Shown in pieces: positions 13,531 through 19,675 of a stretch of 64,000 nucleotides of DNA. Positions within the stretch are counted from its first letter, which is position 1, and each line of letters opens with the position of its first letter. A model generated the notes under the pieces. It did no database searches. It was not told the DNA's origin and saw nothing but the letters and a program-made list of their open reading frames with translations. Origin of the DNA: Armatimonadota bacterium (lineage in GTDB: Bacteria > Armatimonadota > UBA5829 > DTJY01); contig JAIMAU010000002.1 in NCBI GenBank assembly GCA_023511795.1, positions 186,001-250,000 of the forward strand, read 5' to 3'. Position numbers and translations under genes: made by a program.

Positions 13531-13972
13531 TTTCTTCACCCCCCGAATTTTGTAATTTTGTTTTTGTCTACCCAAACGCCGCGCAGTGCTAAACTGCCGG
13601 ATAGGGTCCGTTGATATTTTATTGGAGCTGAATTATGCGGGAAAATTAGGGGAGGAGAAGCTGGAATATGATGATCAAGGTTGCCAACGGGGAATCTTCG
13701 CTCAAAGTAAATTTTGAGGTGCATTTTGTCTTCTTAGGGCTAGAGAAGGTCTCCTGAATTTTTTATAATTAATTAGCCTGGGTGGCACTTGGTTGAAAGT
13801 AGCGATTATATGGCTTTCGTATAATCTTATGCCGTTAGAGATGCTTGCTGATTATGCAAATTATTTTTGAAGTTTGGGGGGGAGGTGAGAATTATTTAGG
13901 ATTGCTTATATCATAGTAGCTATGGGTCAGGCACTAGAATGTTTAGCAAACTTCAACAAAAAGGAGCAAGTT
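13531..13972. other. 442-bp divergent intergenic region
   Basis: Holds the start signals of the small minus operon and of the PstS-like gene. A TATAAT box at 13820-13825 could serve the plus gene, giving a leader of about 140 nt with a G-rich stretch GGGGGGGAGGTGAG at 13876-13889. A 29-codon ORF with a good ribosome site lies at 13668-13757. No RNA gene recognised. Confidence 0.4.
13668..13757 (+). CDS. Possible 29-residue small protein
   Basis: ATG ATG start preceded by GGGGAGGAG about 10 nt upstream, ending in TGA at 13755-13757. The peptide has no recognised family; it is mildly amphipathic. The strong ribosome site is the only support. It may be a real microprotein, a leader peptide or chance. 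Confidence 0.2.
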   Translation: MMIKVANGESSLKVNFEVHFVFLGLEKVS

Positions 13973-14851
13973 ATGCAAAAGTTTTTGCAAATTTTAATGC
14001 TAGTTACTTTGGCATTGGCAATGATTCAAGGATGCAGTCGCAGGGTGGCAATGCAAATCAAAGGTTCAGATACAATGGTCAATCTGGGCCAAGCATGGGC
14101 GGAAGCCTATATGAAAGAACATCCAGGTACGAGTATTGCGGTAACTGGGGGTGGCTCAGGCATTGGTATCGCAGCGTTAATAAATGGGGACACCGATATA
14201 GCTCAAGCGTCTCGGGAAATGACCCCTGAGGAAATGAATCTGGCTAAGAAGAAGGGGTTGAACCCCCACCGATTTGTAGTCGCGCAGGATGGCCTCTCGG
14301 TCATCGTAAATCCAAAAAACCCTGTGAGCAAATTGACCATAGCACAGCTTTCGGATATTTATACTGGTAAAATCACGAACTGGAAGCAAGTTGGCGGCAA
14401 GAATGCTCCCATCGTTGTGCTTTCCCGTGACAAAAGCAGTGGGACCCATGTGTTCTTCCTTGAGCATGTAGTTCGAAGGGGCAACCCAAAAGGTACGGAA
14501 GAGTATGGAAGGTCCGTTCTGATGCAGGTCTCGTCTCAGGCAATTGCCGAAGAAGTGGCTCAGAATGAGAATGCGATAGGCTATGTTGGGATGGGTTATG
14601 TGAATAGGTCTAAGCACAAGACGATTGCTGTTGCCAAGGCAATAGGATACCCTTATGTCGAGCCTACTGTTGAAAATGTCTTGAACGGTTCATATCCGAT
14701 TGCCAGGCAGCTTTACTTTTATACGCCGAACAAGCCCACTGGAAACGTCAAGGATTTCATAGATTTCGTACTTAGTGACGCTGGGCAGAGAATAGTTGCC
14801 AAGCTAGAATTTGTCCCGATTAGAATGGTGGCAAAAGAAGCTGGCGAGTAA
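13973..14851 (+). CDS. PstS-like phosphate-binding lipoprotein
   Basis: 292 residues. A lipoprotein signal ending MIQGC (lipobox) places it on the periplasmic face of a membrane. The mature start QIKGSDTM and the later GGGSGIGIAAL, QASREMT and SSGTHVFFLEHV segments are typical of the PstS/SphX class II binding proteins that hold phosphate with Ser/Thr and Arg side chains. I chose the ATG at 13973 because AAAGGAG lies 6 nt upstream; upstream in-frame codons lack this. No pstC, pstA or pstB is nearby, so it is an orphan binding protein: part of a split Pst system or a phosphate sensor. A short terminator follows. Confidence 0.88.
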   Translation: MQKFLQILMLVTLALAMIQGCSRRVAMQIKGSDTMVNLGQAWAEAYMKEHPGTSIAVTGGGSGIGIAALINGDTDIAQASREMTPEEMNLAKKKGLNPHRFVVAQDGLSVIVNPKNPVSKLTIAQLSDIYTGKITNWKQVGGKNAPIVVLSRDKSSGTHVFFLEHVVRRGNPKGTEEYGRSVLMQVSSQAIAEEVAQNENAIGYVGMGYVNRSKHKTIAVAKAIGYPYVEPTVENVLNGSYPIARQLYFYTPNKPTGNVKDFIDFVLSDAGQRIVAKLEFVPIRMVAKEAGE

Positions 14852-14880: not shown

Positions 14881-15225
14881 GGAAAGGTATTGCAAAAATT
14901 AGAAAAATCTGCGAAAATAGGTTATAGCTAAATCAGGAACAGAAAGTTTTCTTACTACCTAGGCAAGGAGTGGATTGTGGGTATTTTTGGTAGGTCTGAG
15001 AAATCAGTCTTGCCAACGGCCGGAGAGGGTATGCTGGGCCCTTCTCCGGCCAAGATTTTATTTTGTCCTCAAGTATCGGTTTTGGGTGTTTGCGCTTTCT
15101 TTGGCAAGGAATTACTTTCACTTATCCTCTCCGCCTCAAGGATTTGAGAAGTAGTTTTTTAGGCGGAATAATGCTATACTGGATATGGTTCTTATGCTTT
15201 CTGTTTGCAAGGTGGGTTGGCGGTC
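14881..15225. other. 345-bp region before the selenoprotein candidate
   Basis: Holds a GC-rich hairpin at 15018-15051 (GGCCGGAGAGGG / CCCTTCTCCGGCC, one bulge) followed by AAGATTTTATTTTG, which reads as a terminator although no gene ends here. It also holds an extended -10 box TGCTATACT at 15169-15177, the best promoter for the next gene (leader about 40 nt), with a CCGCCT/AGGCGG inverted repeat just upstream (15131-15166). The first part could encode a small RNA; no family recognised. Confidence 0.4.
15018..15060 (+). terminator. GC-rich hairpin with T-rich tail, no gene upstream
   Basis: 12-bp stem with one bulged base and a 9-nt loop, followed by T-rich sequence. It lies 140 nt beyond the terminator of the PstS-like gene. 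It would either back up that terminator or end an unannotated small RNA. Confidence 0.55.
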
Positions 15226-16641
15226 ATGAAACGAGAAATCGCAAAACCGAGAATCTTGTTGCTTTTTGCTGTCTTGTTTATAGGATTGGCGTTATTTTCT
15301 TCTGTTACCTTTGCGGAGAAGAAATTTAACCCACATCAGCTAACAATTCTATTCACGGGCGACGACCAGGGGAATATTAAAGCCCCATGTGGGTGACACA
15401 ACAAAGAGAGCCTCGGTGGGGTTCCAAAACGAGCAACGTGGTTAGAAAATTTTCGGAAGTCTGGTAGCTCTTTCATCCTAGTGGATACTGGTGACGCGAT
15501 AGTCGGAGTAGGCAAGCAAGCTGAAATTAAGACTGCCGCATATGCTGAGGCGCTGGCATATATGGGCTACGACGCCGTTGCAATGGGTGAGACGGAGGCC
15601 AGGTATGTTGCCGAGTGTGGTAATAAGCAACTTTATGGGAAGAGTGTTCCTTTGTTAGCAGTAAACGCGTTCGATGCAGGTAGCAACAAGCCGCTTGCTG
15701 ATAAGGCTTATATTATCAAGAAGACTCAAGAGGGTCTGAAGGTAGGCATCACGGCGGTAGTTGGCGACAATCTCATATTTCGAGCGTTGCCTGGCAATGA
15801 AAAGCTGAAAATAACCGATGCTTTGGAAGCTGTGCGCAAACAGGTTGGCGAACTACGCAAGAAGGTTGACCTCGTAGTTCTTCTAAGCCACACGGGTTAT
15901 GACCTTGCCAAGCGCATTGCAACTGAGATTCCTGGAATCGATGTTATTCTGGTTGGCCACCAAACAGCTTCATCGCCTGCCGCTCCGGTTGAAAATATCG
16001 GCTCTACGGTTTTAATGCAAGCCAAAAGCACTGGAACTCACATTGGCAAGCTTGTTCTTGATATTAACCAAGAGAAGAAGATTGCAAATGCGGCGGGTGA
16101 GTATGTTCCTATGACAGCTGACCTAGCTGATGACCCAAAGATGGTTAAGGTCATTGAAGAACATGATAGGCAGTGGGAAGCTTATATAGCTAGTCTCCGG
16201 GCGCAATATGCATCTCCTGCGTCGGTCTCGACAGGAGAGGTTGGTCAATCACAGCCAAGGCCGTTTGTGGGAGCGCTGAAATGTCGTGAGTGCCACCGCT
16301 CGGAATATGATTCCTGGTTGAAAACGGCACATGCTAAAGCGTTTCAAAGTTTGAGGAAGGACAATCGCACTACAGACCCCGAGTGTGTAAGCTGCCACAC
16401 CACCGGCTACAAGTCAAAGGGCGGTTTCACAAGTGAATATGCTACTCCACAGCTTCAGGGTGTTCAATGTGAGGCCTGCCATGGCGCAGGCGTTATCCAC
16501 ACTCGCAGGCCGGCAAAAGGTTTTGGAGCAGTGCTTCAGTCATCATGCACGCAGTGTCATGATGCAAAGAACAGCCCGAACTTTGACTTCAAAGCCTATC
16601 GAGAAAAGATTTTGCACAAGGCTGATGCGGTTGCCCAGTAG
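15226..16641 (+). CDS. Candidate selenoprotein: phosphatase-like domain fused to multiheme cytochrome c (in-frame TGA)
   Basis: Read through the TGA at 15394-15396 the frame gives 471 residues. Residues 1-30 are a signal peptide. Residues 38-260 resemble the 5'-nucleotidase/UshA metallophosphatase domain, but metal ligands are replaced: TGDDQG instead of the usual DxH, GETEAR (121-126) instead of GNHE, and VGHQT instead of GHxH. Related proteins as I know them carry PCGC followed by GG-x-x-RRA; here the codons read PCG-TGA, then LGGVPKRA, so the stop replaces the second Cys (position 57). Heme-binding CxxCH motifs occur at 353, 387, 415 and 441, with SWLKTAHAKAF and GVQCEACHGAG typical of cytochrome c554-like domains. 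ATG 15226 is preceded by AAGGTGG. Alternatives are a nonsense mutation or a base error. The protein would be periplasmic and redox-active. Confidence 0.75.
15394..15434 (+). promoter_or_regulatory. Putative bacterial SECIS element after the in-frame TGA
   Basis: Hand folding gives CTCG (15412-15415) paired with CGAG (15430-15433), then an unpaired U at 15417, then GG/CC (15418-15419/15424-15425) closing a GGUU loop at 15420-15423. A bulged U and a GGU apical loop about 24 nt behind the UGA are features known from the E. coli fdhF element. The stems are short, so the call is tentative. Confidence 0.4.
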
Positions 16642-16652
16642 TTGATTCCTTC

Positions 16653-17936
16653 TTATTTTTGGAATTGCGGCAAATATGCCGCTTCTAGCGCAAGAAGTTC
16701 GTCTAGAATTTTCTCCGCTGAGTCAACCGAATTTACGACTGGGTCAGCAAGCAGAGCTTGGAGTGCAATCTGTCGTGAGCCTGTAACTGCTGCGTCAACT
16801 ACCAGCTCCTGAACTCCGATTTGTGTGTTGCACATAGCGGCTATCCCCGCCGGCAAAGCGCCAACCGAGATTCCAGAGATGCCGGCGCCACTTATGACTG
16901 CTGGTACTTCAACAATGGCATCCATTGGCAGGTTTGGGATAAGGCCGTCGTTTGGGATATTCACTGCAAGTTCGACGTGGTTGCTATTAGTAATAATCCC
17001 CTCGATAATGCTAAATGCGCGTTCGCCGGAGCGGTGCTCAATTAGAGGTGTAACAGGTTCATCATTCCGCAGAATTCTCGCAATGCGCTCACTAATGTCT
17101 GCCTTGTACCTTTCCGAGCCAGCAAAGTCAAAACCTTTTAGACCACAATACTCCCAAGCGAATGGCAAGTATTCGCCAATGTGGTCGTCGCCAGGTGATG
17201 GATAATAGCCAAAAGTATCGAACATCTTCCTCGATAGCGGTTGGAAGCTTGGATCGTAGTCCTCTAGCTTTTCGCGAAGGAGCGGGTATGCATCTTCCCC
17301 GGTGTCCTTGAAGCGGAGGTCCAGAATCCATGTAAAGTGGTTCAATCCGGCTGCCTTAGCGTCAAGGTTTTCTTGGTCAACTTCCATAACCTTGGAAAGT
17401 CGCCAAAGTTCGCCGGCAATTCCATGACATAAGCCAACGAAGGAAACGTTGGTATATCGGTTTACCGCCATTGAGATGCGGGGCACGGGGTTGGTAAAGT
17501 TAAACACAAGAGCGTTCGGGCATAACCTTTCAATATCATGGCAGATATCAAGAATTATTGGGATATTTCGCATCGCATGGAAAAGTCCGCCTGGTCCGCC
17601 ATTTTCTCCAAGCACTTGCTTGACCCCATACTTAAGCGGGATTTCGAAGTCAAGTTTCCAAAGTTCATTCCGTCGAACCGCAATTGAGATGACGACAAAG
17701 TCTGCGTCTGGCAGTGCTCTTGTGCGGTCTGTTGTTTGTTCAATATTCAAGCCAGCGTCAGCTTGGTCGTTCATCTTTCGGGCGATGGTACCCATTGCCT
17801 CAAGTGCGGCACTGTCTATGTCAACAAGACAAACCGTGCTACCTTTAAGACATGGTATATTGACAAGATCGCTTAGAGCGCCGAGTCCAAAGGAAGCGCT
17901 ACCGACGCCAATCAGGACTATCTTCACGTTTCTCAT
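16653..17936 (-). CDS. GH4 family glycosidase (NAD- and divalent-metal-dependent)
   Basis: 427 residues. GH4 enzymes (alpha-glucosidases, alpha-galactosidases, 6-phospho-glucosidases) cleave by an NAD-dependent redox-elimination route. Visible hallmarks are the Rossmann start KIVLIGVGSASFG (5-17), Asp39 ending the second strand, NFTNP (146-150), Cys170-His171 in GLCHG (metal ligands) and Asn199-His200. Cytoplasmic. AAGGAGGC precedes the ATG by about 6 nt. Its 3' end faces the cytochrome gene with only 11 bp between stops. Substrate stereochemistry cannot be read from the sequence. It could belong to the LplD/alpha-galacturonidase branch, judging from its position in a polysaccharide-using genome, but this is uncertain. 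Confidence 0.9.
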   Translation of the reverse strand: MRNVKIVLIGVGSASFGLGALSDLVNIPCLKGSTVCLVDIDSAALEAMGTIARKMNDQADAGLNIEQTTDRTRALPDADFVVISIAVRRNELWKLDFEIPLKYGVKQVLGENGGPGGLFHAMRNIPIILDICHDIERLCPNALVFNFTNPVPRISMAVNRYTNVSFVGLCHGIAGELWRLSKVMEVDQENLDAKAAGLNHFTWILDLRFKDTGEDAYPLLREKLEDYDPSFQPLSRKMFDTFGYYPSPGDDHIGEYLPFAWEYCGLKGFDFAGSERYKADISERIARILRNDEPVTPLIEHRSGERAFSIIEGIITNSNHVELAVNIPNDGLIPNLPMDAIVEVPAVISGAGISGISVGALPAGIAAMCNTQIGVQELVVDAAVTGSRQIALQALLADPVVNSVDSAEKILDELLALEAAYLPQFQK

Positions 17937-18077: not shown

Positions 18078-18133
18078 TTTCGCAGATTGAGCATGGTTTT
18101 TTATAAAATTCCGGTCTTTTGAGGGAGTTTGCG

Positions 18134-19675
18134 ATGAACCAAAGAGAGCATTGGGCAAGCAGGATTGGATTAGTGCTTGCAATGGCCGGGAGCGCTGTTG
18201 GACTCGGCAACTTTTTAAGGTTTCCTGTTCAAGCCGCTGGGAATGGCGGTGGGGCCTTCATGATTCCTTATTTTGCCGCATTAATTCTATTGGCGGTGCC
18301 TCTAATGTGGGCAGAGTGGGCAATGGGCCGATTTGGAGGAGTTCGCGGTCATGGGACAACACCGGGCATTTTTAAGCTTTTGTGGCCTGGGCGCATATCT
18401 AAATATTTGGGTGTTCTTGGAATTGCTTTTCCACTTACAGTTCTTATTTGGTATACCTACGTTGAGTCATGGACGTTAGCATACAGTTATTTTTCGCTTA
18501 CCGGTGCATATGCAGGAATTGAGACGCGTGAAAGAATGGCGCAATTTCTAAGCAATTTTCTAGGCGGCGGCGGATATGCGACTGCGTATATTTTCTTTAT
18601 AATCACAATTTTACTCAATTTTGTTGTCATCTATCGTGGAATCACCCGAGGTATTGAGGCGCTAGCGAAGATTGCCATGCCAATCCTTTTCCTCTTTGCA
18701 GTCATTCTCGTCATAAGAGTTTTTACTCTTCGTGGAGTAACACCTGAACATCCAGATTGGAATGTTGTCAACGGCTTGGCGTTCTTGTGGAATCCTAGAT
18801 TTGAAAAGCTTGGCGACTTAAGGATATGGCTTGCGGCTGCTGGACAAGTATTCTTCACGCTGAGCCTTGGGTATGGTGTAATCCAAACATATGCTTCTTA
18901 TGTTAGGAAGAATGACGACATTGCATTAAGTGGTCTGGCGACTACTGCCACAAATGAGTTTGCAGAGGTGGTTCTCGGCGGCTCGCTTGCGATACCCCTT
19001 GCATTTGCATTTTTCGGCCCCGTTGCGATGAGTGAGATAGCAAAAGCGGGTGCCTTTGACTTGGGTTTTATGTCAATGCCCATTGTTTTTGGACATTTGC
19101 CATTAGGGTGGTTGCTGGGGGCACTTTGGTTTGGCTTGCTTTTCTTCGCGGGTATTACATCCTCTGTATCTTTGGCTCAACCTGCGGTGGCATTTCTTGA
19201 GGATGAGCTTGGCTGGTCGAGAAAAAGGTCAAGTATCAGTCTATTTGTGCTAGTTTTTATAGCATGTCAATGCGTAATATTTGGAAAGGGATTCTTGGAC
19301 GAGCTTGATTTTCTTTCCGGAACAGCTGGAATTGTGCTTTTTGCTGCAATTGAAGTAATCATATTCGCATGGATATTTGGAATGGAAAGGGGTTGGGAGG
19401 AGATAACTTCTGGAGCCGACATAAGAGTTCCGAGGATATTTTACTATGTCCTCAAGTATGTGACCCCTTTGTACTTGATTGGAGTGCTCGCAGGGTTCAT
19501 AATTCAGCAGGGATTTGACGTGATAACCCTTAGCGGCACCCCACCGGAACAAATCCCATGGAAGTGGGGTGCACGGGCGCTTGTATTTGGACTGATTATT
19601 GCAATGATAATACTTGTCAGGTTTTCCAAGCGTTTAAGGGGAGAGGTGGAAAATGGTGAATCAGGAAATGGTTAA
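18134..19675 (+). CDS. Sodium-dependent amino-acid/neurotransmitter symporter (NSS/SNF family)
   Basis: 513 residues, about 12 hydrophobic segments; inner membrane. The first helix carries the NSS signature GLGNFLRFPVQAAGNGGGAF (sodium and substrate site) and is followed by IPYFAALILLAVPLMWAEWAMG. It should import an amino acid or related compound with Na+. The ATG at 18134 has GAGGGAG 7 nt upstream, so it is preferred to a TTG at 18119. The 3' end overlaps by 23 nt a 50-residue single-helix protein, the same arrangement known for the MetP/MetS type of NSS transporter. The substrate (methionine/alanine or other) is unproven. Confidence 0.93.
   Translation: MNQREHWASRIGLVLAMAGSAVGLGNFLRFPVQAAGNGGGAFMIPYFAALILLAVPLMWAEWAMGRFGGVRGHGTTPGIFKLLWPGRISKYLGVLGIAFPLTVLIWYTYVESWTLAYSYFSLTGAYAGIETRERMAQFLSNFLGGGGYATAYIFFIITILLNFVVIYRGITRGIEALAKIAMPILFLFAVILVIRVFTLRGVTPEHPDWNVVNGLAFLWNPRFEKLGDLRIWLAAAGQVFFTLSLGYGVIQTYASYVRKNDDIALSGLATTATNEFAEVVLGGSLAIPLAFAFFGPVAMSEIAKAGAFDLGFMSMPIVFGHLPLGWLLGALWFGLLFFAGITSSVSLAQPAVAFLEDELGWSRKRSSISLFVLVFIACQCVIFGKGFLDELDFLSGTAGIVLFAAIEVIIFAWIFGMERGWEEITSGADIRVPRIFYYVLKYVTPLYLIGVLAGFIIQQGFDVITLSGTPPEQIPWKWGARALVFGLIIAMIILVRFSKRLRGEVENGESGNG

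Follow-up and report, generated by a model that had tools for sequence, protein, structure and literature searches.

The gene at positions 15226-16641 on the forward strand of the window (the whole stretch of 64,000 nucleotides analysed) is, taken as a whole, very probably best explained as encoding an exported tetrahaem member of the UshA-like family NF041198, which would contain selenocysteine (Sec) and may use its CxU pair as the working site. A single frame of 471 codons spans these positions, and its sole interruption is a TGA at 15394-15396, corresponding to residue 57. With this codon read as Sec, the protein reads MKREIAKPR...FTGDDQGNIKAPCG-U-HNKESLGGVPKRAT... and carries four CxxCH motifs toward its C-terminus. 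The local context of the site is ...KAPCG-U-HNKESLGGVPKRA..., in which the UGA takes the position of the second Cys of a PCGC motif. This reading bears out the coordinates, the single in-frame TGA, the comparison with PCGC and the four CxxCH motifs given in a preliminary description of this DNA, and it also supports the combination of phosphoesterase and tetrahaem parts proposed there. The gene and its parts are as follows.

15226..16641, forward strand: selenoprotein gene, UshA-like (NF041198), 471 amino acids, Sec57 (predicted from translation and family match)
15226..15318, forward strand: probable signal peptide spanning residues 1-31 (MKREIAKPRILLLFAVLFIGLALFSSVTFAE) (read from the sequence; the structure model has a helix at 9-24)
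15340..16200, forward strand: degenerate calcineurin-like/UshA-type metallophosphoesterase domain, about residues 39-325 (domain profiles, alignment and model)
15388..15396, forward strand: C55-G56-U57 (CxU) site, with the UGA codon at 15394-15396 (translation and homologue alignment)
15408..15424, forward strand: putative apical hairpin of a bacterial SECIS element (bSECIS), GAGCCTC-GGT-GGGGTTC, with its loop 18 nt past the UGA (folding and stem test)
16282..16296, forward strand: haem-binding motif 1, CRECH, residues 353-357 (sequence motif and alignment)
16384..16398, forward strand: haem-binding motif 2, CVSCH, residues 387-391 (sequence motif and alignment)
16468..16482, forward strand: haem-binding motif 3, CEACH, residues 415-419 (sequence motif and alignment)
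16546..16560, forward strand: haem-binding motif 4, CTQCH, residues 441-445 (sequence motif and alignment)

Mechanical calling of open reading frames places the start at a GTG at 15481, after the TGA, and yields a frame of 386 amino acids (15481-16641) that lacks both signal peptide and CxU site. The significance of the present analysis lies in confirming what is almost certainly a genuine Sec gene, of which standard gene calling would report only a shortened form.

The read-through protein scores 276.2 bits against the NCBIfam model NF041198, 'UshA-like (seleno)protein', passing the curated cut-off of 275 by only 1.2 bits. The 519 positions of the model are matched at 5-275 and 344-519, that is, in both the phosphoesterase and the cytochrome parts, and all of the 26 aligned homologues match the same model. 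The PCG(U/C) (CxU) motif of the family, located after the first strand, is present as C55-G-U57; with the same whole-length match, motif and two-part architecture, nothing essential differs in the window gene. The family already figured as 'COG0737, UshA-like', with a CxU motif and 76 Sec sequences, in the selenoproteome published in 2008 from Global Ocean Sampling data (PMC2398784), and it is also included as a selenoprotein family in reviews from 2022 (PMC9312934) and 2026 (PMC13188914). UshA is not mentioned in the paper on the Sargasso Sea (PMC1088965). Both the NF041198 match and the existing literature thus contradict the preliminary suggestion that the selenoprotein family is new, and the gene is a divergent, well-supported new member of a known family. 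A second curated family, NF049981 (UshA-like (seleno)protein family 2), belongs to the same phosphoesterase superfamily and likewise comprises Sec and Cys forms. However, the window gene reaches only 65.5 bits against it, below the cut-off of 140, and its model spans 262 positions only, lacking the cytochrome part found in the window gene. The motif of NF049981 is CxxU (PMC13188914).

The assignment of the UGA at 15394-15396 to Sec, in place of the second Cys of PCGC, is almost certainly correct, as indicated by the homologues, the decoding machinery and the conservation of the codon itself. A search of genome contigs for relatives of the single protein returned only two distant ones (from Cohnella and an Actinomycetes metagenome-assembled genome), which were uninformative. 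The alignment of 26 homologous sequences shows that position 57, which the preliminary description had singled out for comparison, is either Cys or UGA in every one, and that C55 is invariant together with C/U57; most of the aligned copies in the phylum carry Cys there. The counterpart of the gene in a congeneric genome (G003) encodes a protein with 97% identity and retains the same TGA, and UGA is also found at the site in two more genomes of the phylum (G002 and G064). Comparison with the G003 copy gave dN/dS values of ~0.14 before the TGA (0.016/0.112) and ~0.05 after it (0.012/0.228), so that synonymous changes dominate on both sides; this shows purifying selection upstream and downstream of the TGA. 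The longest run of identical DNA between the two copies, 119 nt, begins 51 nt ahead of the TGA and ends 67 nt beyond it, thereby covering both the UGA and the hairpin described below. Because a single curated family is matched along the entire read-through product, the TGA is kept in the congener and the dN/dS values are low, the interrupted frame is not a product of chance.

The same data bear on the possibility of a pseudogene or an error of sequencing or assembly, in which the TGA would be either a genuine nonsense mutation or a TGC or TGT that was called wrongly. Such an explanation agrees superficially with the presence of one stop in a frame that is open elsewhere, but the congeneric genome also has TGA at this codon, as do three other homologous genes, selection after it is strongly purifying, and the genome holds the full Sec machinery. 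This explanation has only a very slight probability and is largely refuted by the conserved UGA.

A second UshA-like copy provides a further view of Sec decoding at this codon. The copy in G003 (L038, G003:C8:126196-127554) reads SCG-TGA, and its orthologue in the genome of the window gene, G000 (L037, G000:C1:44063-45415), reads SCG-TGC. The pair looks like a natural exchange of Sec and Cys, with a recent Sec-to-Cys change in G000. The four genomes provide a neat natural experiment, in that Sec and Cys occur at the same codon between orthologues of one genus and the downstream hairpin is retained in the Cys form.

The selenocysteine machinery was searched for family by family in G000, and all four of the components whose presence the preliminary description had proposed to check were found: selA (596 bits; cut-off 268), selB (402 bits), selD (384 bits) and a tRNA-Sec (selC) with the anticodon TCA (UCA), about 0.9 kb downstream of selA. 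Across the genomes compared, selA is present in 4/4 of those with UGA at the site, and UGA at the site is found in 0/14 of those without detected selA; the association (Fisher P ~0.07, with 4 UGA genomes only) is consistent with Sec and is not strong proof by itself. In G064, selA was found and selB was not detected in the fragmented assembly. A variant genetic code, under which UGA would be read as another residue such as Trp or Gly, is hardly credible, since a dedicated tRNA-Sec with a TCA anticodon exists alongside selA and selB, the homologues have Cys at the site and never Trp or Gly, and TGA serves as a normal stop as well, ending 5 of the 33 long open frames in the 64-kb window. On inspection, the further in-frame TGAs with long open flanks in the window either lacked homology support or were ordinary gene ends. 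The selD locus of G000 (L012, G000:C2:158603-159529, minus strand) appears to be a selenoprotein gene too, having an in-frame UGA in THGGG-U-ACK and a strong hairpin whose GTT loop begins 33 nt past that UGA. The GGG-U-ACK loop is a common location of Sec in SelD.

In the proposed mechanism, the UGA would be decoded as Sec by SelA, SelB, SelC and SelD of the cell with the aid of a bSECIS hairpin just downstream. In three Sec copies, a bSECIS-like hairpin of 7 bp, its loop reading GG(U/C), begins 11 nt past the UGA. According to a published bSECIS model, the loop has 3-9 nt with a G in its first two positions, the stem 4-16 bp, the spacing 16-37 nt and the minimum free energy a value of -7.5 kcal/mol or lower (PMC13188914). 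The hairpin at 15408-15424, with a GGU loop, a 7-bp stem and a spacing of 18 nt, falls inside this geometry, and its energy is -7.0 kcal/mol alone, just short of the threshold, and -8.0 kcal/mol for the 39-45 nt fold. All seven pairs are kept in three lineages (the window copy, the second locus of G003 and G002), for which comparison with synonymous shuffles gave P values of 0.005, 0.012 and 0.022, and the copies at the second locus of G003 and in G002 show two-sided changes in the outer two pairs (A-U/G-C) that preserve pairing. For the window copy, the sequence that follows the UGA has a total folding energy no better than that of synonymous shuffles (P ~0.2-0.9 depending on the length folded), so that only the position of the stem is unusual, and a hairpin of the same kind follows 21 of the 1056 TGAs in the window. 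For these two reasons, the hairpin is taken as supporting evidence only. An Rfam search of 15000-16000 at a permissive threshold found no SECIS and no other credible RNA. The hairpin is absent from the Cys copy of G004 (L035) and still present in the G000 Cys copy (L037), which is what a recent change from Sec to Cys would leave.

The architecture of the protein was examined by domain profiles and by a structure model built from the alignment. In Pfam, Cytochrome_C554 was matched clearly and Metallophos only weakly. The model has a mean pLDDT of 78.7, and its N-terminal part lies near UshA and CD73 (TM ~0.5); the loop around CxU was modelled with low confidence (pLDDT ~54), and haems are absent from the model. 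From motifs and HMM alignment, the window copy keeps the metal ligands D46, D90, H222 and H245, whereas Q48, E122 and T247 replace the metal-binding H43, N116 and H254 of UshA. The earlier statement that most of the metal ligands have been lost was therefore right as to the equivalents of H43, N116 and H254 and overstated in the word 'most'. Among the homologues, the ligand positions drift, but C55, C/U57, G64, G65, G89 and N147 do not.

Compared with the UshA/CD73 5'-nucleotidases and with the SoxB thiosulfohydrolase (TIGR04486), the window protein shares the N-terminal fold and the order of motifs. In contrast to them, it has an incomplete set of metal ligands, the CxU site instead and a haem fusion; neither the full two-metal ligand set nor the nucleotidase C-terminal domain of a UshA 5'-nucleotidase is found, and a cytochrome stands at that end. 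This haem domain resembles cytochrome c554 (PF13435; PDB 1bvb), and another multihaem selenoprotein family is known in the ExtKL cytochrome selenoprotein (NF040886). In the window gene, however, the Sec belongs to the phosphoesterase part rather than to the cytochrome part.

The protein would be exported and, judging from its motifs, would carry four c-type haems in the cytochrome c554-like C-terminal domain, while the UshA-type phosphoesterase fold would have partly lost its metal site and kept the invariant C-x-C/U pair instead. Since C55 and C/U57 are invariant while the metal ligands have eroded, we propose this pair as the working site. It could act as a selenenylsulfide/dithiol-type redox centre or as a metal or substrate ligand, exchanging electrons with the haems, a proposal to which we give nearly even weight. 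Slightly more tentative is the narrower view of a phosphoesterase fold turned into a periplasmic selenol redox enzyme, in which the metal site has decayed and C-x-U is catalytic, exchanging electrons directly with the tetrahaem cytochrome. The invariant pair and the eroded ligands together favour, but do not establish, a CxU centre in the periplasm that serves in redox or metal binding and is coupled to the c554-type tetrahaem domain. The selenoprotein might alternatively still be a metal-dependent phosphoesterase or a SoxB-like hydrolase, with C55/U57 binding metal in a structural or accessory capacity only and the haems forming a separate unit; the four retained ligands agree with such a hydrolase, as does the SoxB match of 92.7 bits, though far under the cut-off of 550. 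The three missing ligand equivalents in the window copy and the wide variation of the ligand positions among homologues, set against the unvarying C55/C57, make such a hydrolase rather improbable. The contrast between the invariant CxC/U pair and the decayed metal ligands directs experiments to the pair.

The neighbouring genes encode a PstS-like binding protein (13922-14851), a GH4 protein (16653-17936, on the opposite strand) and an SNF transporter (18119-19675). An operon with these adjoining genes was considered and rejected, as they are functionally unrelated to the UshA-like gene, and the 10-kb synteny with G003 was likewise set aside as a sign of an operon, as it reflects close kinship only.

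Two further forms of the protein were observed among the homologues. In G064, a distant homologue (L051, G064:C534:8163-9449; ~29% identical) has PCG-TGA at the site and a hairpin that is placed differently. L039 (G002:C19) and its relatives L042-L048 represent a subtype with CNC (SCNCTKFRYGG), with Cys in every copy seen, including those from genomes with selA.
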